NCBI RefSeq assembly: GCF_010692555.1
Contig: NZ_JAAHHG010000067.1
Location: 1 to 32,717 of the forward strand
Origin: Okeania sp. SIO3B5
GTDB lineage: Bacteria > Cyanobacteriota > Cyanobacteriia > Cyanobacteriales > Microcoleaceae
Reading direction: 5' to 3'
DNA: 32,717 nucleotides
Shown here: positions 16,803-26,483 of the stretch, piece after piece
Layout of the letters: the number at the start of each line of letters is the position of its first letter
Numbering within the stretch: position 1 is the first letter of the stretch
Made by a program: the position numbers and the translations under genes
Notes under the pieces: model-generated
What the model was told of the DNA's origin: nothing
Database searches by the model: none
Seen by the model: the letters and a program-made list of their open reading frames with translations, nothing else

Positions 16803-17036
16803 AGTCCTATGATTTTCCCTTTTCTCCTCTACACCACACTTAAGCAGAATTGCTCACGCTAAGTGTATATAATCTACTGTTTCCACCTACTAAACAATCA
16901 GCAGTTTAATTACTTTTTGCTAGTAGACGGCTACAGTTTTTGAGATTATATCAGGGGATTGCTCAAAATACTCTCTACAGATTAAAGTTATTACCAAATA
17001 TATGTGGTACACTTATAAATTTAAGCTAATACAAAA

Positions 17037-17585
17037 CTAAGAAAGTAATGGTTCAATTGCTTGCTGAATTACCTTTAACTGTTCATCATCGTAGCCCCAA
17101 CGTTCTAGAAACTCCTTGTAATTTCCCACTCCAGTAGTTGTACTTTGATATAATTCCTCAATTTCACCTTTTAAGGTAGGAATATCTACACTTTTAATTA
17201 GTCTTGTGGTTCGCGATCGCACTCTTTTTGATTCATTGGCTGTCTCCTCATCTTGATTTCGCTGATGGTGGACTACCATTGCCGAACACATGGCCAGATT
17301 TTTCACCAACAGTTCTACCACTATTTCTGGAGCTGACTCTAAGGCTTTAAATATTGATGGTGATGGATTATCTGCTAAAGGTCTAGAATCTGTAAGATAA
17401 CTAACGAAAAATCCTCTAGCACCATTTTTACTCTTGACTAAATCTCCAATTAATGACCCTATTTTATCTTCCGATAACTGGCCTGTTTCTATCTCAGACA
17501 TTATTTCTTGAGTTAAGGCGATCGCTTCTTCAAATGTTATATTTTCTGGTATAGATAATGATGTTGATTTCATAGCTTGGGACAT
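17037..17585 (-). CDS. Hypothetical protein, 182 aa
   Basis: I do not recognise this protein. It is soluble and largely helical, with SIPENITFEEAIALTQEIMSEIE near the start, a central GFFVSYLTDSRPLADNPS segment, a helix of EIVVELLVKNLAMCSAMVVHH, and a C-terminal YKEFLERWGYDDEQLKVIQQ. Two HIP1 sites lie inside it, which suits long-resident chromosomal DNA. It is divergent from the IS607-type recombinase, with 90 bp between the starts. ATG at 17585 and a second in-frame ATG (residue 5) are both possible. No catalytic motif is visible. Confidence 0.7.
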   Translation of the reverse strand: MSQAMKSTSLSIPENITFEEAIALTQEIMSEIETGQLSEDKIGSLIGDLVKSKNGARGFFVSYLTDSRPLADNPSPSIFKALESAPEIVVELLVKNLAMCSAMVVHHQRNQDEETANESKRVRSRTTRLIKSVDIPTLKGEIEELYQSTTTGVGNYKEFLERWGYDDEQLKVIQQAIEPLLS

Positions 17586-17603
17586 TTTCTTAAATATACT
17601 TTC

Positions 17604-17653
17604 TTGTATTGTAAAGTTTTAACACAAATACAATCAAATATAGTCAAATATAG
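17604..17653. promoter_or_regulatory. Divergent promoter with direct and inverted repeats
   Basis: Between the two divergent starts, TTGTATT (17604-17610) and AATACAA (17627-17633) form an inverted pair. They are followed by two perfect 10-bp direct repeats TCAAATATAG (17634-17643 and 17644-17653). One helical turn of spacing suggests cooperative protein binding. The N-terminal HTH of the adjacent recombinase is a candidate binder, but that is inference. Confidence 0.45.
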
Positions 17654-17675
17654 TCATTCATGTTAATCTATAGAC

Positions 17676-18248
17676 ATGAAACTCTCAGACTATGCTAAAA
17701 AAGTAGGAATAAGTTATCGAACAGCCTGGAGGTGGTGGAAACAAGGGAACTTAACAGGTTATCAGTTGCCTTCTGGTACAATTATTATCACCGATGAGTA
17801 CAATTCCAAACCAGATGTGGTAGCTTGCATTTATGCAAGAGTGTCCAGTGCAGAAAACAAAGATCATCTAGATAAACAAGCTGAACGGTTAAAAAATTAT
17901 GCCATTGCTAAAGGCTATAAAATCTATACAATAGTTCAAGAAATTGGCAGTGGTTTAAACGATAATCGGAAACAATTGGCTAAGATTCTAGTTGACCCCA
18001 ACTATAATGTTTTGATTGTCGAACATAAAGACCGTTTAGCCAGATTTGGTACAAATTATATAGAAATTTTGTTAAAAGAACTAGGTAAAGAAGTTGAGAT
18101 TGTTAATTCAAGCGAGGAAAAACAAGATGAGTTAATGGAAGACTTAATCGCTATTATTACTTCTTTTTGCTCGCGAATTTACGGATTAAGAAGCTCGAAA
18201 CGAAAAACTGAAAAGATGATTGCTGAGTTAAAATCTCAGGAAGGCTGA
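17676..18248 (+). CDS. tnpA: IS607-type serine recombinase TnpA
   Basis: A 190-residue serine recombinase with the IS607 layout: an N-terminal MerR-like helix-turn-helix (SDYAKKVGISYRTAWRWWKQ, residues 4-23) followed by the catalytic domain. The nucleophile should be Ser57 in YARVSS (53-58); the conserved arginine region is HKDRLARFG (117-125). Length is near the family norm of about 200. IS607 elements normally carry tnpB immediately downstream, often overlapping. Here the frame is followed after 31 bp by a MITE-like element and then ruvB, so this is a tnpA-only copy or a solo element. No frameshift is visible and the protein could be active. Confidence 0.9.
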   Translation: MKLSDYAKKVGISYRTAWRWWKQGNLTGYQLPSGTIIITDEYNSKPDVVACIYARVSSAENKDHLDKQAERLKNYAIAKGYKIYTIVQEIGSGLNDNRKQLAKILVDPNYNVLIVEHKDRLARFGTNYIEILLKELGKEVEIVNSSEEKQDELMEDLIAIITSFCSRIYGLRSSKRKTEKMIAELKSQEG

Positions 18249-18577
18249 TTTAGCTAGCTGAAATATATATTATTAACTAGGGCTTGCTGATTAATTCTAA
18301 AAGTATTGACTGATATTGGTTTTAGCGTTTTAGAGTTGAAAAAAGTACCAGCTTTTCGGTGGTAAGAGCTGCAAACAGCTAGTATTTTGGGATGATTATG
18401 GCAGAAAAATTGAGAGACAATTGTTACTCCTACCTCCTAGCTTATTCCCTGTTTCTCCTGTCTCTTGTCTCCTGTCTCCTACCTCAGCAAAAAGACTTTC
18501 CATACGCAAACCCTAACTAGCTATGAGCTAGCCTTTTGTAGAGGAATGTAAATAATGTTAGATATCATTTCCTATTT
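18249..18577. other. ruvB upstream region, mostly MITE copy C
   Basis: Apart from MITE copy C, only 31 bp on the left and 64 bp on the right remain. The right part contains AGCTAGCCTTTTGTAGAGGA (18529-18548), similar to the family 2 element ends, just before the ruvB start. I see no strong ribosome binding site. Confidence 0.4.
18280..18513 (+). mobile_element. MITE-like element, copy C
   Basis: A 234-bp element starting GGGCTTGCTGATTAA and ending ATACGCAAACCC, with a perfect 6-bp flanking repeat TAACTA. It contains the family block GGCAGAAAAATTGAGAGACA and CCTGTCT heptamers. It sits between tnpA and ruvB, ending 64 bp before the ruvB start, so it may contribute to or displace the ruvB promoter. 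Confidence 0.88.
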
Positions 18578-19732
18578 ATGGCCATAATTTCTTCCAAAAA
18601 ACAATCTCCACAACCAGAAAGGCCAGAAGATAACATTTTCTCAGCCTCAGAAAAAAAAACTTCATATAAAACCAAAAAATCAAAATCTCAGGCTGAATTA
18701 GAGGAAGTAGAAGCTCTATTAGAAGCACAGGCAACTACAGCAGAAAAGAGTAGTAGTCAAAATGAAGAAAAAATCCGACCTCAAAAGTTAGCCGAATATA
18801 TCGGACAAAAAGACCTGAAAGAAGTATTGAATATTGCGATTTCGGCGGCTAAATCTAGAAAAGAATCTCTAGACCATTTACTATTGTATGGTCCTCCTGG
18901 ATTGGGCAAAACTACTATGTCTCTAATATTGGCAGCAGAAATGGAAGTTAACTGTAAAATTACTACTGCTCCTGCCATTGAAAAACCTAGAGATATAGTT
19001 GGTTTGCTAGTAGGTTTACAAAAAGGGGATATTTTGTTTATAGATGAAATCCATCGCCTTTCCAAAATGACAGAAGAAATACTTTATCCGGCGATGGAAG
19101 ACTTTAGACTAGATATTACAGTCGGGCAAGGAAAAACATCTAAGACTAGGAGTATTCCTCTAAAACCTTTTACTTTGGTAGGAGCAACTACTAGGGTTGG
19201 TTCTCTAACTTCTCCTCTGCGCGATCGCTTCGGAATTATCCAGAGGTTACGTTTTTATGAGGTTGATGAACTGAGTCTAATTATTCTCCGAGCAGCAAAA
19301 CTTTTAAATACGGATATTACAGAGGATGGTGCTGAGGAGATTGCCCGTCGTTCCCGGGGTACGCCTCGAATTGCTAATCGTTTACTTCGGCGGGTTAGAG
19401 ATTATTCGGAAGTGAAAAAGTTGACTCCGATAAATGCTGAGGTTGCAGGTGAAGCTTTGGAGTTGTTTAATGTTGACCCTCTAGGTTTAGATTGGACAGA
19501 CCGTAATTTATTAAGGACGATGATTGAGAATTATAATGGTGGCCCTGCTGGCTTAGAGACAATGGCAGCAGCCACAGGGGAGGATGCTCAAACTATTGAG
19601 GAGGTTTATGAGCCATATTTGATGCAGATTGGGTTTATGCAGCGCACTCCTCGTGGTCGGGTTGTGACGGCTGCAGCTTGGAGGCATTTGGGTTTTACTC
19701 CGCCTGATGAACAGTTGAGTTTAAAGTTATGA
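18578..19732 (+). CDS. ruvB: Holliday junction branch migration ATPase RuvB
   Basis: The AAA+ motor that, with RuvA, drives branch migration of Holliday junctions in recombinational repair. The 384-residue protein has Walker A GPPGLGKT (105-112), Walker B FIDEIHR (154-160), sensor 1 GATTR (202-206) and the arginine-finger segment SPLRDRFG (212-219). The C-terminal winged-helix part includes [10 protein letters not shown] and a GGPAG motif, ending with [14 protein letters not shown]. An N-terminal extension of about 65 polar residues precedes the usual start of the fold ([11 protein letters not shown]). A HIP1 site lies within it. It is convergent with the four-gene cluster. Confidence 0.97.
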
Positions 19733-19927
19733 AATTTTAATTTGGTTATGATTTTGGAGGCAAGCTATTTGTTTTTGTTGTAGTTTAGTTTTGTTATAGA
19801 TAAGGAGTTATGAACCGCCATAAGATTTTTTTCTACGAGATTTATTATTAATCTACAGCGGTTTTAACTTTTAGGAAATGAGCGATCGCTTAATCTGCCT
19901 CAAATTTTGAAATATCTGTTGAAGATA

Positions 19928-20377
19928 TTATCGTGCTTTCAAGAATCCCCTGATTGTCTCTACTGGAATAGAGATTGCAGGATTATTAAATATTGCTTTT
20001 AATGCCTGAATACCTCCTGCTTCTAAAGCACTGATTAGTCGTTTTCTAAGAGTTGGATTATCATTTATTTGCTGTTGAATAGCTGTTTCTGCCAAAGCTT
20101 CATTTGCAGTTATGGGATTTTGGGCAAGATGTTCTAATAGTGGTTGAATTTTCTTTCTAAGTTCCTGAATTTCTACTTCTAATTGATAATTTTCAAGTCT
20201 TTCGTCAATCTTTCCTGTCTTTAAATTACCATTACTTACATCTATATTTTGCATATTCATAGATGTATTATTTTCCTCAGAAAGTGAATCTTTAGGAGTG
20301 TGAATATCTCCAGTTTTTATAGTAGCATCTTTCATTGAGCCACTGACTGTAATAGATGTATTATTTTTTTTGCTCAT
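19928..20377 (-). CDS. Small protein with duplicated TG(D/N/K)I motif
   Basis: I do not recognise a named family. The 149-residue protein starts with two copies of one pattern: NTSITVSGSMKDATIKTGDI (6-25) and NTSMNMQNIDVSNGNLKTGKI (37-57). A helix rich in Glu and Leu follows (60-85), then a region LRKRLISALEAGGIQALKAI (110-129) ending NPAISIPVETIRGFLKA. A third copy of the N-terminal motif is in the C-terminal part of the pentapeptide protein encoded just upstream (137-bp gap, same strand). No signal peptide or membrane span. It is last in the four-gene cluster. A short hairpin overlaps the stop codon. Confidence 0.75.
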   Translation of the reverse strand: MSKKNNTSITVSGSMKDATIKTGDIHTPKDSLSEENNTSMNMQNIDVSNGNLKTGKIDERLENYQLEVEIQELRKKIQPLLEHLAQNPITANEALAETAIQQQINDNPTLRKRLISALEAGGIQALKAIFNNPAISIPVETIRGFLKAR

Positions 20378-20514
20378 AGTTTTATCTCTTGTTTTTACAT
20401 AAACTCAGTGTAGCATTTTTCAAAGAGTTGTAGAAAATGGTTAACCTGAAATAGTTTCCAATAACTAGGTTGTTTGAACTGCTACTTTTATTTCAAATGG
20501 AAATCCAGTAAGAA

Positions 20515-22335
20515 CTAAGTTTCCTCATTCTCTTCATCGGATGAATCATTAGATTGAGTTTCATTATTATCTAGAGTATTATCTTTATTTTGTTCTAGCT
20601 CTTCATTAGAATCTGTTTCAATAATATTTCCTGTAGCAAATGAACTATCGCTCACCTCTCCTTGAGTATTTATTGAGGAATCATTGAAGTCTTCACCAGC
20701 ACTTTTTGCATTGGCATTTGCGTAAGTATTGAATATATAACTAGCTCCTTCTTTTGACAGATTAGTAATGACTGCAATGGCTGATTTTTCTCCTTTAATT
20801 ATCTTTAAAAAATCTTCTGCACTAATTTGTATTTCACCATCTCTTTTCGGATTCCAATCAATGCAAGAAATAGTGCAATTATTTTCATTTAACTTAATAC
20901 CTCCTCTTTGGGTTTGAAAAAAATTGGCGCAGTTAAGGATACATTTATCTATCTTTAATAGGGTTAAATCTGCGTATCTAAAATCAACTCCTGTTAAGTT
21001 ACTATTTAAAAATTTACTACCTCTTAAATTACCATTGCAGAAAGTAGCTCTCACTAGCTCAGAGTTATTAAATTTGGCATCTATCATTTTTACTTGAGAT
21101 AAGTTGACTTCATTTAAACTGCAATCTTCAAATTCACTACCTGAAATATCAGCAGATAAAAGATCCGCTGACTTCATAACTTTGCCAGCAAAATTAGTTT
21201 TAACAAATTTACAGTTACGAATTTTAGATTTGCGTAAGCTTGTTCCTTCAAAGTTACTTTCTTCAATTATCGTATTTTCACTAATGTCAATCAAATTCAT
21301 TAAAGCACCATTAAATTGACATTTACTGATTGTAGGATTATGAGTTTTTCCCTCCTTAATAGGAGAGTCTAGTTTAACTCCAATATAACAATTAATTAAT
21401 TCATCATTATTATCATTTTGCTTCTTATTTTTATCTACCTGTGTTCTAAAAACCTTAAATTGAGAATCAGAAAAGATGGTCTCTGAAAATTCACAATCGT
21501 AAAATCTACAAGCTACAAGTTGTGCTGAGGAAAAATCAGTTTTAGATAAATTGCAATCTTCAAATTTGCTACAAAGTATAGCTGTTTTAAAGCTAGAAGC
21601 AGTCAAATCACAATTGTCAAAAATCAGTATTTCATCATTTTCTATTTTCTGCTTAGTATAAACGGTACGACAATTATCAAAAGTAGCCTTTGTTAAATTA
21701 TTACATTGAGAAAACTCGACCTGAATTAACTGTGAATTACTAAACTTTGCACGATTAAGATTAGAGTTGAAAAATTTAACCTGCTTAAGGAAACTATTAG
21801 AAAAATTTACACCTTGAAGTTGAGCTTCAGAAAACTCTACATTAACTAACTGACAGTTAGCACATGAAAGTCCATCAACTACTACTTTCAAATTTGAAAA
21901 CTTAGTATCTACTACTCTAATTCCAAATTCACTACATTTTTCCAGAAATATTGTTGGCTCAATAGTATCTAAATCCTCTTGATTAACTTCGGCTTTAAAT
22001 ATTATCGTAGCTAAGTTATTGCCGATTTCTATTTTATCTCCCCCTCTAAGTGAACCTGTAGTTGAACGAAGAGAAGTTTTAGTTTCTTGGTCAATATATT
22101 GACAGAATTTGAAACCATTAACTCTTGACCAAGAAATTCTGAGAAAAAACCAGTATTTTGAAGTTAAAGGTAATTGCTTTTTTTCCTCTAAGGATTCTAC
22201 TAATATTTGAGGTTCATTTAGACTACCGTAAACTATTACATTGCAAAGGGTTCCTTCATATAAATAGGGTACTTCAAATAATTCTGGGTCAGAATTTTGC
22301 TGACTTTTAATTTTAAGAGAAAAACTAATCTTCAT
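20515..22335 (-). CDS. Pentapeptide-repeat protein with FHA-like N-terminus
   Basis: A 606-residue protein. The first about 125 residues are beta-rich and include SLRGGDKIEIGNNLATIIF (about 95-113), loosely like an FHA or related sandwich fold; this is tentative. Residues about 145-490 are pentapeptide repeats of the A(D/N)LXX type in relaxed form (for example LNRAKFSNSQLIQVEF, LTGVDFRYADL and LVACRFYDCEF), which fold as a right-handed quadrilateral beta helix. After a helical segment (about 505-540) comes INTQGEVSDSSFATGNI (about 555-571), matching the motif in the small downstream protein, then an acidic tail. I choose ATG 22335 (MKISFSL); the upstream TTG at 22344 gives only three more residues. 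It starts 18 bp after the preceding gene, so co-transcription is likely. Confidence 0.85.
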   Translation of the reverse strand: MKISFSLKIKSQQNSDPELFEVPYLYEGTLCNVIVYGSLNEPQILVESLEEKKQLPLTSKYWFFLRISWSRVNGFKFCQYIDQETKTSLRSTTGSLRGGDKIEIGNNLATIIFKAEVNQEDLDTIEPTIFLEKCSEFGIRVVDTKFSNLKVVVDGLSCANCQLVNVEFSEAQLQGVNFSNSFLKQVKFFNSNLNRAKFSNSQLIQVEFSQCNNLTKATFDNCRTVYTKQKIENDEILIFDNCDLTASSFKTAILCSKFEDCNLSKTDFSSAQLVACRFYDCEFSETIFSDSQFKVFRTQVDKNKKQNDNNDELINCYIGVKLDSPIKEGKTHNPTISKCQFNGALMNLIDISENTIIEESNFEGTSLRKSKIRNCKFVKTNFAGKVMKSADLLSADISGSEFEDCSLNEVNLSQVKMIDAKFNNSELVRATFCNGNLRGSKFLNSNLTGVDFRYADLTLLKIDKCILNCANFFQTQRGGIKLNENNCTISCIDWNPKRDGEIQISAEDFLKIIKGEKSAIAVITNLSKEGASYIFNTYANANAKSAGEDFNDSSINTQGEVSDSSFATGNIIETDSNEELEQNKDNTLDNNETQSNDSSDEENEET

Positions 22336-22353
22336 AGCTATCAAAAACTTTAG

Positions 22354-23505
22354 TTAGACTTTACTATCAATAACATCTTTTATCTGTGCTGATACTTTTG
22401 AAGGATTATTCATAATTTCCTCTGCTGTGAATACTAAACTTTGTATTCCTTCTACGGTGTGCTGATTAAATCTAGATTTAAAATTAATTTCATCTTCAGG
22501 AGTCCATTTTTTTTCTTTTCCTTTGAATTCTTCATCTCGGCAATACACAACAACATTATAGTCATCAAAATCTAAGACTAGACACTTTGGTAAACCTTGC
22601 TTTGGTGCATATTCCCTCACAATAGGTTTTGGCAAATGTTCGTTTTGTATTGCCTCAAACAGCAGATACGCAACAGGAGATAATTCTGATGGTAGTCGTA
22701 AATCTTCCTCTGATTTGCCATAGTTTTTCAAGTAGTATGTGCGTTTTTCAATCACTTCATTGTTACTCTCTGAAGAAATATCTATTTGAGGAGGTTGAGG
22801 AAAATTCAGTTCTTTAACTGACTCATCCAAACTAGATAATTTTTCAAGAATATTTTTACTTTGAGAAGCAAAATCTACAATTAGTTTTTTAACTGGATTA
22901 AAATTTTTCTTTAACTCACGCATAGAATCTGAATACTCTTTATAATCAATCAGCTTATCCTCAAGCCCTTGTATTTTTTGGATGTACTTTACTTTTTGAT
23001 CATATATTTCCCGTTTGTATAAATTTTTAATTATGGTTTTACTTATAAATAAGGTAGAAATAGATAATACTGCTGCTATGATAAGAGATGTCACGGCTCT
23101 CCAATTGTCATCAGAATTCGGTACAACATTTAACATAGCTATAAACGTTAGATAGATATCTGCTAGAAATAAAAACCATATTAAAGGTATGCCTAAAAAC
23201 TTTAACCTTTTAAGTAGAATTCCAGACTCGTCTATTAAAGAAGCAATGGGTAAAAATGTTGTTACTAGCAAGCTTATTAAAGTTTTGCTCGGAATACTAA
23301 AAATTTGATCAGAATCTAATTCAAATAAATTTCCTAAACCCTTATTTAGTATGGCAAGCTGAGAAAGACTAAGGATTAATAAGAATCCTATAAGTAACCA
23401 TGGTATGAGCGAATCAATAACAAAAAAGCCTGCGTTTTTTTGACTCCGATATCTTTCAAGTCGCTCGCAGTATTCTTTATGATTCTTTGAGCTAAATTTA
23501 TTCAT
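22354..23505 (-). CDS. Four-span membrane protein with soluble C-terminal domain
   Basis: No family recognised. The 383-residue protein has a short charged N-terminus, four predicted membrane spans (about 26-54, 75-92, 103-128 and 137-161), a charged probable coiled coil (162-232) and a soluble domain (about 255-383). That domain contains LPKCLVLDFDDYNVVVYCRDE (306-325, numbered from KCLV) and ends with NQHTVEGIQSLVFTAEEIMNN. The DFDDY and VVVYCR strands could belong to a nuclease-like or binding fold, but I cannot assign one. It lies 50 bp downstream of the secreted-type protein and 18 bp upstream of the pentapeptide-repeat gene. The topology suggests a membrane sensor or effector with its C-terminus in the cytoplasm. 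Confidence 0.8.
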   Translation of the reverse strand: MNKFSSKNHKEYCERLERYRSQKNAGFFVIDSLIPWLLIGFLLILSLSQLAILNKGLGNLFELDSDQIFSIPSKTLISLLVTTFLPIASLIDESGILLKRLKFLGIPLIWFLFLADIYLTFIAMLNVVPNSDDNWRAVTSLIIAAVLSISTLFISKTIIKNLYKREIYDQKVKYIQKIQGLEDKLIDYKEYSDSMRELKKNFNPVKKLIVDFASQSKNILEKLSSLDESVKELNFPQPPQIDISSESNNEVIEKRTYYLKNYGKSEEDLRLPSELSPVAYLLFEAIQNEHLPKPIVREYAPKQGLPKCLVLDFDDYNVVVYCRDEEFKGKEKKWTPEDEINFKSRFNQHTVEGIQSLVFTAEEIMNNPSKVSAQIKDVIDSKV

Positions 23506-23555
23506 AATTATACTTCAAATTAACAATCAGTTCTATGTGAATAAAAAAAAATTCA

Positions 23556-24401
23556 TCAGTTCCAATCTTTTGGTATTGCGCAAGCTCCCTCATTTTGAAT
23601 AGGGTCATACTTAACTATTTTATCTTGACTTTCTATAAGTTCAGCAACATATTTTCCTATATATAAACCTCCTTTTCCCACCAAACTTTCTACTTCACTA
23701 GCTAGGTTTGTGCTAACTTCATTTTTGGTACTCTCTAGCTTATCTTTTGCCCTTAACACAGACATTAGATTTTTATATTCTCTGATTCTAAAATAATTTT
23801 CATTTCCTATTCTATCCCAAGTATACTTATCAATAAAAATCTTAGTTTTCGCTTCTCTAATCTCTATAGGAAGAGACAAAATAAAAATAATACTTACAAT
23901 ATCTGAATCGCTAATTAATAAATTTCTTTCCATACTAGCGTGAAAAACCACTTCGTCTCCCTCAGTAGACCATTTGCCAGCAAAACAACTATCTTCACTG
24001 CTAAACTTTAGACTATCTTTGAGCCGATCTATGCGCCTTATATAAAATGTTTCAGGTTTATGAGAAAAAGTAACTATTGTCGAAACTTGTGGATTATGTT
24101 TTCCGTTTTTACGGCTATTATTGCTGTTTTCTATTATGGCGTTTATAGGCAATCTTAAAATTATTTTGTGCGGTAAACAATTTTGAGTTCTGAAGAAATT
24201 TCCATATATAGAACTATTAGGTTGCACACTTTTGGATAGAGGTGTTTCATTCTTAATCTTCTCAACCTCACAAAAATTAGTTCCCTTTATTCTTTTTGAT
24301 AATGTTGGGAAGAAAAACACTAAAATCACAAGTAATGGAATTATCGGACCTAATCTTGGAATTATCCTACTTAATGAAGATATAAAGCGATTGTTTTTCA
24401 T
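23556..24401 (-). CDS. Single-span exported protein with four cysteines
   Basis: No family recognised. The 281-residue protein has a basic N-terminus and one hydrophobic span, LGPIIPLLVILVFFFPTL (17-34), which would act as an uncleaved anchor or signal. The rest has four cysteines (44, 75, 139, 274) that could form two disulfides if periplasmic. The middle is beta-rich (for example KIILRLPINAIIEN and DIVSIIFILSLPIEI); residues 205-240 are helical. It appears to be the first gene of the four-gene cluster, with a perfect palindrome 80-98 bp before its ATG. The MKNNRF start is supported because the span then begins at a normal distance. Confidence 0.75.
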   Translation of the reverse strand: MKNNRFISSLSRIIPRLGPIIPLLVILVFFFPTLSKRIKGTNFCEVEKIKNETPLSKSVQPNSSIYGNFFRTQNCLPHKIILRLPINAIIENSNNSRKNGKHNPQVSTIVTFSHKPETFYIRRIDRLKDSLKFSSEDSCFAGKWSTEGDEVVFHASMERNLLISDSDIVSIIFILSLPIEIREAKTKIFIDKYTWDRIGNENYFRIREYKNLMSVLRAKDKLESTKNEVSTNLASEVESLVGKGGLYIGKYVAELIESQDKIVKYDPIQNEGACAIPKDWN

Positions 24402-24480
24402 ACGAAAACACCCAATTGAACTTATTTAATAAAATAAAAATACTAAGGTTCCTTAAACTCAGAACAAGTAATCCTAAACT

Positions 24481-24499
24481 ACAAATTTCCTAAATTTGT
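24481..24499. promoter_or_regulatory. Palindromic operator candidate of the four-gene cluster
   Basis: ACAAATTT, then CCT, then AAATTTGT: perfect 8-bp arms around a 3-nt centre, located 80-98 bp upstream of the first gene's ATG. Its place and symmetry fit a dimeric regulator site. No regulator gene is adjacent on that strand. Confidence 0.45.
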
Positions 24500-24994
24500 T
24501 TGCAAGCGATCTGACTATATTGGCAACTACCTCCTGAGTTTTTGAATTTCCAGAAATTGTCTAGTCAAAAAAACTGCAAGATGAACTTGTCTTTTACTCT
24601 ATAGAAAAGAAGTAGTTGATTAGAAGAATAGTTAAGGGTAAAAATAACCAGACAACGGGGGCAAGATAAAAAGGAAAAAAATTTTCTAAGCACCCATTTG
24701 TTTTCTATATTAGCAAGAAAAATTTTAGAGCTGATTTGTAAACTTAGCTGTTTGCGCAGCATTCCGAAGGAAAAGTTTTATATTACCTAGCTTTTAGTAA
24801 TTTGTTGATTACTGGACAATAATTCGCCACGCCTAAATATAGCAAGAAATTCAGCCTCTTAATATTTATTTTATAAATCAGATATTAGAAAGGATTTAAC
24901 GCCTTGGATAGACACTCAAAAATTGAACAGAACATTACCTCTGCTCAAAAATTCTCTTTCTCATACTCGTTTTTTATTTAACTGATTCTCTTAA
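24500..24994. other. Gene-free tract between the cluster and the HTH gene
   Basis: I see no convincing gene. A 65-codon minus-strand frame at 24565-24762 has no recognisable features. The tract contains one copy of the dispersed GCTGTTTGCGCAGCATTCCG repeat (24747-24774), otherwise AT-rich sequence. Confidence 0.5.
24747..24774. repeat. Dispersed GCTGTTTGCGCAGC repeat
   Basis: GCTGTTTGCGCAGCATTCCG followed by AAGGAAAAG is the same sequence that forms the inverted ends of the family 2 element at 13170-13199. Here it stands alone, with no partner nearby. Confidence 0.7.
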
Positions 24995-25552
24995 TTACCT
25001 TTTACCCTTCTTTTTTTGCTTTCTCTTTTTAGGTTTTGATTTTTTCTTTTGAAATCTCGCTCTCTGTTCAACCACTTCTGGAGGCGGACCATAATCTCCA
25101 TCGGAAAAATACACCCGTTCCACAATATGTTGTGGTTCTACTTCAATCCACAGACGAGCGCCACCAGCTTGACTTTTATTAGGGTTGTGAGGTTGATAAA
25201 CTATTTGACAAGGGCCATGAATTTTTAGAGCATGACAATAATCCTTTTTACCTCCCACTTTCACAGCAACTGCTGGATGAGAAGTTTTATTGTCTCGGTT
25301 GTAGTCAATAGTATCTCGTAAAACATGAATAAAGGTATTACCTGTCCGTCTATTCTTATTCCAAGTTCCTTGAGGACCACGACGACCGGGTTTAATTTCT
25401 GGCATTCCCTGATGGTTGAGAGGAATCATCCAGAGTCTTTTTAGCTTATAAGCACCAATAACTCGATTTTGGTTCAGCAACTCCCGCAATCTACCAGTGG
25501 AAATATTGAGTAAAAAAGCAGCTTGTGTAGTAGTAACTAAAGATACACTCAT
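24995..25552 (-). CDS. Cyanobacterial HTH DNA-binding protein, basic tail
   Basis: A 185-residue protein from ATG 25552 (MSVSLVTTTQAAFLLN); the longer frame needs a TTG start at 25609 and adds 19 residues that do not look conserved. The N-terminal part (SLVTTTQAAFLLNISTGRLR, RELLNQNRVIGAYK, LWMIPL) is an excisionase/MerR-like winged helix. The middle has CHALKIHGPCQIVYQP and LWIEVEP, a pattern I recall from small cyanobacterial proteins of this kind. The end is extremely basic (KKKSKPKKRKQKKKGKR), probably for nucleic acid binding. Function is unknown. It is not close to a recombinase or phage gene, so excisionase activity is doubtful. Confidence 0.8.
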   Translation of the reverse strand: MSVSLVTTTQAAFLLNISTGRLRELLNQNRVIGAYKLKRLWMIPLNHQGMPEIKPGRRGPQGTWNKNRRTGNTFIHVLRDTIDYNRDNKTSHPAVAVKVGGKKDYCHALKIHGPCQIVYQPHNPNKSQAGGARLWIEVEPQHIVERVYFSDGDYGPPPEVVEQRARFQKKKSKPKKRKQKKKGKR

Positions 25553-25937
25553 AACTACAACGTTGGGGTTTTTAGATATTAGATAATAAGTATAATTTTG
25601 GAAATGCAAAAAGCACTACCTTAGTTAATGTTAAGAAAGACTCCCGTTAAATTTCACAACTAAAAAATATCCACAGAAATTAACGGCGTTTGATTTAACG
25701 ACTGAGTGCCACAGAAATAGATTAAAGCAATATGACTTAGACTGAATTTTCCTAGTCTCTAATTGCAAAACAAAAATTAGTAATATGATTTTAAGTTAAT
25801 TTCCTTTGATTTATGGCTTTTTTTATTAGCCTAATTAATAGATTAACTTGTCAAGTTAGACACATCGTTTAATTATTTATTTTAAATTATCTCATAACAA
25901 GTATGGTATAACAGAAACTATAATTTAGTCAAAAATA
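25553..25937. other. Divergent intergenic region, HTH gene / FMN reductase
   Basis: A 385-bp AT-rich region between divergent genes. Only the 15-bp palindrome at 25844-25858 and a TATAAC near 25905 stand out. No gene or repeat seen. Confidence 0.4.
25844..25858. promoter_or_regulatory. Palindromic operator candidate upstream of FMN reductase
   Basis: TAACTTG, T, CAAGTTA: perfect 7-bp arms with a single central base, about 80 bp before the ATG. A possible -10 (TATAAC, about 25905) lies between it and the gene. This placement suits an activator or repressor of the reductase gene; the regulator is unknown. Confidence 0.45.
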
Positions 25938-26483
25938 ATGGTAAAAATCGTGGGAATTGGAGGTAGTTTGCGGTCTACTTCCTATAGTCAGCAAGCTCTA
26001 GAAATAGCAATTCAGAAAGTAGAAGCTCTCGGTGCAGAGGTGAATATATTGGATTTACGATCGCTCAATCTTCCTTTTTGTAAAGGAGAGGGTGATTATT
26101 CAGAATATCCAGATGTAGAGCGACTCCGAGAAGTAGTTAAGCAGGCTGATGGTCTAATTTTGGCCACGCCAGAATATCATGGCAGTGTTAGTGGTGTGAT
26201 GAAAAATGCCCTTGACTTGATGAGTTTTGAACATCTAGATGGAAAGGTAGCAGGTTTAATTAGTATTTTGGGAGGTCAATCAAATAGTAATGCGCTGAAT
26301 CATTTACGGTTAATTCTGCGATGGGTTCATGCTTGGGTTATTCCGGAACAAATTGCTATTGGTCAAGCTTGGAATGCTTTTTCTAGTGATGGTAAATTAT
26401 TGGATGAAAAAATATCGGAACGTTTTGATAAATTTGCTCAAAGTTTAGTTGATAATACTTGTAAAATTAGAGGTTGCAGTTAG
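25938..26483 (+). CDS. NAD(P)H-dependent FMN reductase
   Basis: A 181-residue flavodoxin-fold reductase of the NADPH-dependent FMN reductase family (SsuE/ArsH/azoreductase-like), which reduces FMN or FMN-bound substrates such as quinones in the cytoplasm. It has the phosphate-binding GIGGSLRSTSYSQQAL (6-21), LILATPEYHGSVSGVMKNALD (93-112, counted from ILAT) with the family's PEYHGS motif, and a Rossmann-type first strand. The full family length is present. It stands alone, with a palindrome in its upstream region. The physiological substrate cannot be read. Confidence 0.9.
   Translation: MVKIVGIGGSLRSTSYSQQALEIAIQKVEALGAEVNILDLRSLNLPFCKGEGDYSEYPDVERLREVVKQADGLILATPEYHGSVSGVMKNALDLMSFEHLDGKVAGLISILGGQSNSNALNHLRLILRWVHAWVIPEQIAIGQAWNAFSSDGKLLDEKISERFDKFAQSLVDNTCKIRGCS

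Follow-up and report, generated by a model that had tools for sequence, protein, structure and literature searches.

Organisation of the cluster

We analysed a 32,717-nucleotide stretch of the cyanobacterium Okeania sp. SIO3B5 (contig NZ_JAAHHG010000067.1, positions 1 to 32,717; hereafter, the window), in which four genes that we name D, C, B and A lie in that order on a single (minus) strand, as called from open reading frames (ORFs):

23556-24401, minus strand: gene D (281 aa), an N-terminally membrane-anchored protein with a predicted extracytoplasmic domain
22354-23505, minus strand: gene C (383 aa), with about four membrane spans, a coiled coil and a C-terminal domain
20515-22344, minus strand: gene B (609 aa), with a beta-rich N-terminus (~1-145), pentapeptide repeats (~146-490) and a motif-bearing tail
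19928-20377, minus strand: gene A (149 aa), a small adaptor-like protein with two N-terminal repeats of ~21 residues and a C-terminal helical domain

The intergenic distances are 50 bp (D/C), 9 bp (C/B) and 137 bp (B/A). In Trichodesmium sp. MAG_R02 (genome G343) all four proteins are 69-73% identical to their counterparts in the window genome (G000), and the order E-D-C-B-A is retained, E being a neighbour described below; because of this conservation in identical order, we regard A-D as genuine genes and not chance frames. The original prediction for this DNA, made from its letters alone, had proposed four same-strand genes separated by 50, 18 and 137 bp. The ORF calls and the Trichodesmium locus bear out the four genes, and the first and last gaps are as proposed; the 18 bp applies only if B begins at the ATG at 22335, and the upstream TTG gives 9 bp.

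The complete set is present in these two genomes only. A search of 61 family genomes detected C in G000 and G343 alone, and D has one close relative, again in G343, its three further matches being restriction enzymes; a scan of genome contigs with a C pattern returned only the Trichodesmium sp. MAG_R02 record. As developed below, the cluster is two modules, D-C and B-A. Separately, the Trichodesmium locus (L015 5648-8207) contains, between C and B, three partial copies of B (96-99% mutual identity) and a fragment from the 3' portion of C; the partial B copies may be silent recombination cassettes, recent duplications or an assembly effect.

B and A share a matched motif

The N-terminus of A and the tail of B are related by a short motif, and the features concerned are as follows:

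20303-20365, minus strand: A repeat 1 (residues 5-25), from the shuffle test
20207-20272, minus strand: A repeat 2 (residues 36-57), from the shuffle test
20623-20685, minus strand: B C-terminal motif (residues 554-574), which matches the A repeats, from sequence comparison
19931-20194, minus strand: A helical domain, from the domain survey

In each of two orthologues, none of 400 shuffles scored as high as repeat 1 against repeat 2. When the repeat region of A was compared with the tail of B in four pairings of orthologues, 4, 2, 47 and 3 of 400 shuffles reached the observed score, and with B trimmed round the motif none of 500 did so. The layout is seen again in Trichodesmium, where, next to B-A, a DUF6232-type membrane gene ends in the motif that starts the neighbouring A-like gene (0 of 400 shuffles). 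Elsewhere we collected 17 short A-like frames, 15 of them with an upstream ORF; the motif matches at loci L038, L108 and L122 were equalled by 0, 2 and 0 of 1000 shuffles, respectively, and the partners at L038 and L108 are, judged by eye, DUF6232-like membrane proteins. A matched-motif layout accordingly stands beside A-like genes in four other lineages.

We then compared seven pairs with one another in all combinations. In all 7 rows the best match was the cognate partner or its orthologue (z 4.3 to 14.3). Non-cognate scores mostly lay below z 3, and the highest unrelated one was 4.6. The seven pairs were preselected, having been matched or spotted by eye, and B was trimmed to its motif, so the comparison shows private tags and not their frequency. 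We also record that L122 (1477-2840) belongs to a separate order-level lineage within the same class: here a HEAT-repeat protein (PADLOC 2.2e-15) and an A-like adaptor carry near-identical terminal motifs (z 14.3).

Could this likeness be mere convergence of low-complexity tails rich in N, S and T, in a decaying genomic island whose genes have no joint function? The tail of B is acidic and polar, the A-B score is reached by some shuffles (2-47 of 400), and gene debris is at hand, in the form of the tandem partial B copies in Trichodesmium and part copies of a DUF6232 gene in sister genome G329. However, composition-preserving shuffles seldom reach the scores (never, in 400, for the A repeats), convergent tails would have to prefer their own or an orthologous partner in every row of the cross-comparison, and the four frames are intact in two genera. 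We consider this explanation very improbable.

B itself has a strong Pentapeptide_4 match (2.9e-30; 104.6 bits against a Pfam cut-off of 38) following a non-repeat N-terminus, just as the original prediction had it. We tried and rejected B as Hailong HalA, HetL or Qnr, since its scores against these NCBIfam equivalogs are all far under the cut-offs (57.2 of 250, 78.5 of 260 and 51.3 of 240 bits, respectively).

A search with the helical domain of A gave 19 matches in the window's genome, counting A itself. In a sample of 292 genomes from across the phylum, the domain was present in 41; 18 candidates were scored per genome, and the per-genome counts are lower bounds. Among 45 of 48 frames that carry this domain, fusions to pentapeptide (9), Roc-COR (5), nSTAND1 (1), C14 caspase (1) and CHAT (1) domains were seen, counts that are again lower bounds, the frames being cut by 1.5 kb flanks. 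Fusion of A-type domains to pentapeptide proteins is common, which makes it likely that B and A, encoded here by separate adjacent genes, are partners. The helical domain has no Pfam model. Pfam contains EAD and TRADD-N models; both were absent among the Pfam hits of 21 and 45 A-domain proteins, and we rejected A as a member of either family. PADLOC model PDC-M14B was matched weakly by 4 of 21 A-domain members (best, 1.4e-4). Furthermore, family-model scans detected no NTPase domain in A-D, hence no NLR (STAND NTPase) in the set.

D and C form a conserved pair

D contains a single strong N-terminal hydrophobic segment and exactly four cysteines (44, 75, 139 and 274), in keeping with the one-span, four-cysteine protein of the original prediction; a second high-scoring stretch, at 161-179, is possibly a strand.

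24297-24365, minus strand: D membrane segment (residues ~13-35), by hydropathy

The four cysteines are invariant in an alignment of 11 of 11 relatives from three families, and the D homologues of one of these, f10, carry a lipobox-like LQSC or LHSC (by eye). Given these invariant cysteines and the lipobox-like Cys, D is probably extracytoplasmic, with two disulphide bonds.

Our first D profile (E<=0.01) matched 10 of 386 genomes: a distant homologue in G409 scored 3e-55, and, the window itself apart, the eight other matches were weak, at 5e-5 to 0.008. With a three-row profile, D was then recovered from 11 of the 388 genomes searched in the order. They span three families and six genera (the window's family, two genomes; f10, four; family f58, five), and D is 31-34% identical between families. 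A C homologue follows D on the same strand in each of these 11 genomes, and the membrane part of C is kept in all 11 aligned homologues. Single-sequence searches undercount, finding no C outside G000 in 292 genomes of the phylum, and D in other families came to light through the profile alone. The original prediction had named two outcomes that would speak against a system, homologues scattered and never together, or assignment to housekeeping families. What we found is that D-C is not scattered, because the two genes are adjacent in 11 of 11 D-bearing genomes from three families, and that family searches gave no housekeeping assignment for D or C.

Nor did D or C reach the cut-off of any Pfam family, whether taken from the window or from the nine relatives that were scanned, so that the description of the families as unrecognised holds for these two proteins; it does not hold for B, which belongs to a known repeat family. 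No match to D or C was found on plasmids or viral contigs, and none below E 0.2 among solved structures for D or for the C-terminal domain of C. Hydropathy gives C about four spans, as had been predicted along with this domain:

22357-22707, minus strand: C C-terminal domain, with conserved YCRDE...W...DE..FK and a possible distant DUF559-like (PD-(D/E)xK) fold, by alignment and hhalign

We compared this domain with a DUF559 set of 18 sequences from relatives. As a two-row alignment it gave an hhalign probability of 39%, a score matched by 0 of 100 column shuffles and by none of 49 control slices taken from the remaining cluster proteins or from elsewhere in C; with seven rows the probability was 72% over 64 columns, a level that none of 200 column shuffles reached. 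Hmmscan gave no DUF559 match for the domain, and the catalytic D..ExD residues are absent: C has YCRDE where the DUF559 rows have IVDF...EVDG..H. A Foldseek search with the C model (mean pLDDT 44) gave nothing at E<=0.001; of the 50 rows listed, 8 are what we take to be PD-(D/E)xK folds (McrC, 3hrl, Can2, BglII and XisH), which is not evidence by itself. We treat as a lead the possibility that the domain is distantly DUF559-like, lacking recognisable catalytic residues.

Two other identities were tried. D resembles restriction enzymes of 319-321 aa (32-35% identity across 69-81 residues; matches in 3 of 61 genomes), and the profile comparison gave an hhalign probability of 6.6%, yet 0 of 100 shuffles reached the score; we rejected D as a dead restriction enzyme on that low probability and on the invariant cysteines and anchor, which point outside the cytoplasm. 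The PADLOC matches of C are weak throughout (RTasSLATT, 0.13 for the window protein; CARF_TM, 9.4e-4, and 2TM effector, 0.016, for its homologues; no curated cut-off), and C as a SLATT/2TM effector was likewise set aside.

These same PADLOC matches would fit a further explanation, in which the cluster belongs to the classic bacterial amyloid signalosomes (BASS/Bell), with D-C, or C, in place of the membrane killer, C as the pore and B-A as the trigger. Matched motifs in adjacent genes are indeed the defining logic of BASS pairs, according to PMC7889193 and PMC8086366. Such a system would be expected to include an NLR, which the set lacks, and the motif is N-terminal to the domain of A, whereas in BASS it is C-terminal to Bell; the PADLOC matches may reflect nothing but hydrophobic composition, and D-C occurs without B-A. 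We judge this version improbable.

The occurrence of D-C without B-A bears more heavily on whether the two modules belong together. In f58 (5 genomes) and f10 (4 genomes) D-C stands in conserved neighbourhoods, with a creatininase-like gene (named by reading) downstream in 4 of 5 of the former and a gene of 292 aa downstream in 4 of 4 of the latter. Searches with tblastn found no B or A beside D-C in G409, nor in the other eight f58 and f10 genomes (10.5-18 kb neighbourhoods), and A-like pairs are found elsewhere without D-C. It is therefore possible, though on the unlikely side, that D-C is an ordinary, vertically kept envelope pair, beside which an independent conflict or adaptor pair, B-A, landed in one lineage. 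Against this account stand the order D-C-B-A, which two genera share with proteins 69-73% identical and with intergenic distances, in the window, of 9-137 bp, and the gain or loss of the set as one block at the site beside ruvB. On the reading that we prefer, set out below, the D-C core is old, and B-A is a swappable output module that was joined to it in Microcoleaceae-type genomes.

A variable interval beside ruvB

The cluster occupies an interval between ruvB and a multicopy gene, E:

19736-24918, no strand: interval from ruvB to gene E, empty or differently filled in sister species, by blastn
18578-19732: ruvB, between the recombinase and A
17676-18248: IS607-like resolvase
24995-25609, minus strand: gene E, a multicopy helix-turn-helix (HTH)-like gene beside the cassette here and in Trichodesmium (30 matches in G000)

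Homology to sister genomes in blastn stops at ~19728-19735 and resumes at 24909-24983 in the three with E or part of it, or at 25902 in G326; ruvB is 93% identical in four congeneric genomes. In G326, ruvB lies directly beside an FMN-reductase gene, at ~195 bp. In G329 the interval contains nothing but E and an incomplete copy of a DUF6232 gene (L052 8613-8789). That of G327 (L053 5884-8996) contains a calcineurin-like metallophosphoesterase, with PADLOC matches to Effector and PDC-S60 models (~5e-20), and two genes that have no Pfam family. In G328 (L060 6009-7005) there is a DUF6232 gene, its 3' end in another frame, together with an A-like gene that is 76% identical to the A-like gene of Trichodesmium. 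Two cassettes that adjoin each other in Trichodesmium are thus found, in two sister species, at one and the same site. The interval looks like a cassette-exchange site, as seen in five genomes, which are few.

The E family numbers 30 matches in G000 and 48 in G339 and is present in 19 of the 61 family genomes; Pfam gives it weak HTH matches only, and no match was found on plasmids. E is probably outside the system. Two details of the surroundings had been misjudged in the original prediction: the recombinase does not adjoin the cluster, the IS607-like resolvase being ~1.7 kb from A with ruvB between, and the DNA from 17000 to 26000 is not repeat-rich, containing just weak short repeats. No tnpB-like ORF of >=60 aa lies between the resolvase and ruvB in the window; at sister loci L053 and L060, transposase-like ORFs (by reading) lie between the resolvase position and ruvB.

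A possible envelope-to-cytosol relay

Our preferred reading, which we hold tentatively and at a little under even confidence, is that an envelope sensor is coupled to a tag-templated cytosolic signalling pair of the HET-S/BASS type. The adjacency of D and C, the invariant cysteines, the modular make-up of C, the sharing of the motif, the fusion partners of A-type domains and the swap site are the observed parts from which it is built; we infer the location of D, its signal, the templating and the output. D, anchored by its N-terminus and folded outside the cytoplasm with two probable disulphides, would sense an envelope or redox signal. Its invariable neighbour C, with four spans, would relay the change to the coiled coil and C-terminal domain that C has in the cytosol. 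B, acting as a rigid scaffold built on a pentapeptide beta-helix, might thereby be released or clustered, its C-terminal motif becoming exposed. This motif could nucleate A, through the two N-terminal motifs of the latter, by strand templating in the manner of HET-S/NWD2 or bacterial BASS pairs, the match being one at the level of sequence. The helical domain of A would then recruit or execute a response, most likely a cell shutdown triggered by stress or by an invader.

Several observations weigh against this reading. The weakest motif comparison is that of A with Trichodesmium B (47 of 400 shuffles), the best full-length alignment of the window's A and B falls on the acidic tail and not on the motif, and among the other A-like genes with an upstream ORF just 3 of 15 have a matched motif. 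D-C stands alone at conserved sites in f58 and f10, which looks vertical and not mobile, and B-A adjoins it in just two genomes. Seven of 11 C homologues possess the C-terminal domain, which the 4 from f10 genomes lack. AlphaFold models built from two-row alignments (mean pLDDT 33 for D, 44 for C) were not usable, and no known defence system was matched.

The original prediction had suggested a dedicated sensing, signalling or conflict system. Three features support a sensing or signalling layout: conserved cysteines of the disulphide type in D, the membrane-protein nature of C, and the motif that B and A have in common. As for conflict, the variable ruvB-side interval and the fusion partners of the A domain speak for it, but a dedicated four-gene conflict system is not established, because distant families hold D-C alone at stable sites: co-occurrence of at least three of the four genes, expected in distant genomes, was found once, in Trichodesmium of the same family, and the two more distant families have only D-C. 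A conflict role for the cluster is nevertheless plausible.

We can extend the preferred reading to a bolder form, speculative and unlikely in its entirety: a transmembrane-triggered, prion-like relay in which D registers redox or envelope damage through its disulphides, C transduces it and the tag of B templates A. A-type adaptors would then be a widespread cyanobacterial class, each with a private tag that matches only its neighbour (a pentapeptide, DUF6232 membrane or HEAT protein), giving each filamentous cell many insulated, swappable death or defence circuits.

Significance and comparison with known systems

Whatever their function, D and C define two families that Pfam lacks and that keep each other's company in three cyanobacterial families; the site beside ruvB, for its part, is a place to seek further cassettes. 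If the preferred reading is right, bacterial tag-templated signalling extends beyond NLR-Bell pairs to membrane, HEAT and pentapeptide proteins, each with its private tag. The organisms concerned would include filamentous bloom formers such as Trichodesmium, a cyanobacterium in which programmed cell death has been much discussed. The matched tags make the templating idea directly testable with short peptides.

Bacterial amyloid signalling pairs of the BASS/Bell type were reportedly described by Dyrka in 2020. We found no description of the present arrangement in the open literature on pentapeptide pairing, DUF6232 and PDC-M14, subscription papers and supplements being outside the scope. The A-domain members match component B of the PADLOC candidate PDC-M14 marginally, and the other PDC-M14 components were not seen.

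As described in PMC7889193 and PMC8086366, BASS/Bell systems consist of adjacent genes with a shared short motif, an NLR partner and a small helical partner, and filamentous cyanobacteria are among their hosts. Our preselected pairs are alike in that the products of adjacent genes end and begin with the same short motif, one partner being small and helical. They differ in having no NLR, in the position of the motif, which precedes the helical domain of A and follows Bell, in the nature of the partner (a pentapeptide, DUF6232 or HEAT protein) and in the addition of the membrane pair D-C. Podospora HET-S/NWD2, as presented in PMC7889193, likewise has two motif copies of ~21 residues on one protein and one on its partner; A and B have neither a HeLo domain nor an NLR, and the motif match between them is one of sequence. 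The TRADD-N/EAD conflict systems of multicellular bacteria (PMC8195603 and PMC7159879) share the principle of a constant small adaptor that is fused, in cyanobacteria, to pentapeptide, caspase and STAND proteins; the TRADD-N fold is described there as RRM-like, whereas the domain of A looks all-helical. Set beside these systems, the cluster may represent a new, tag-templated signalling variant of the microbial immunity type.

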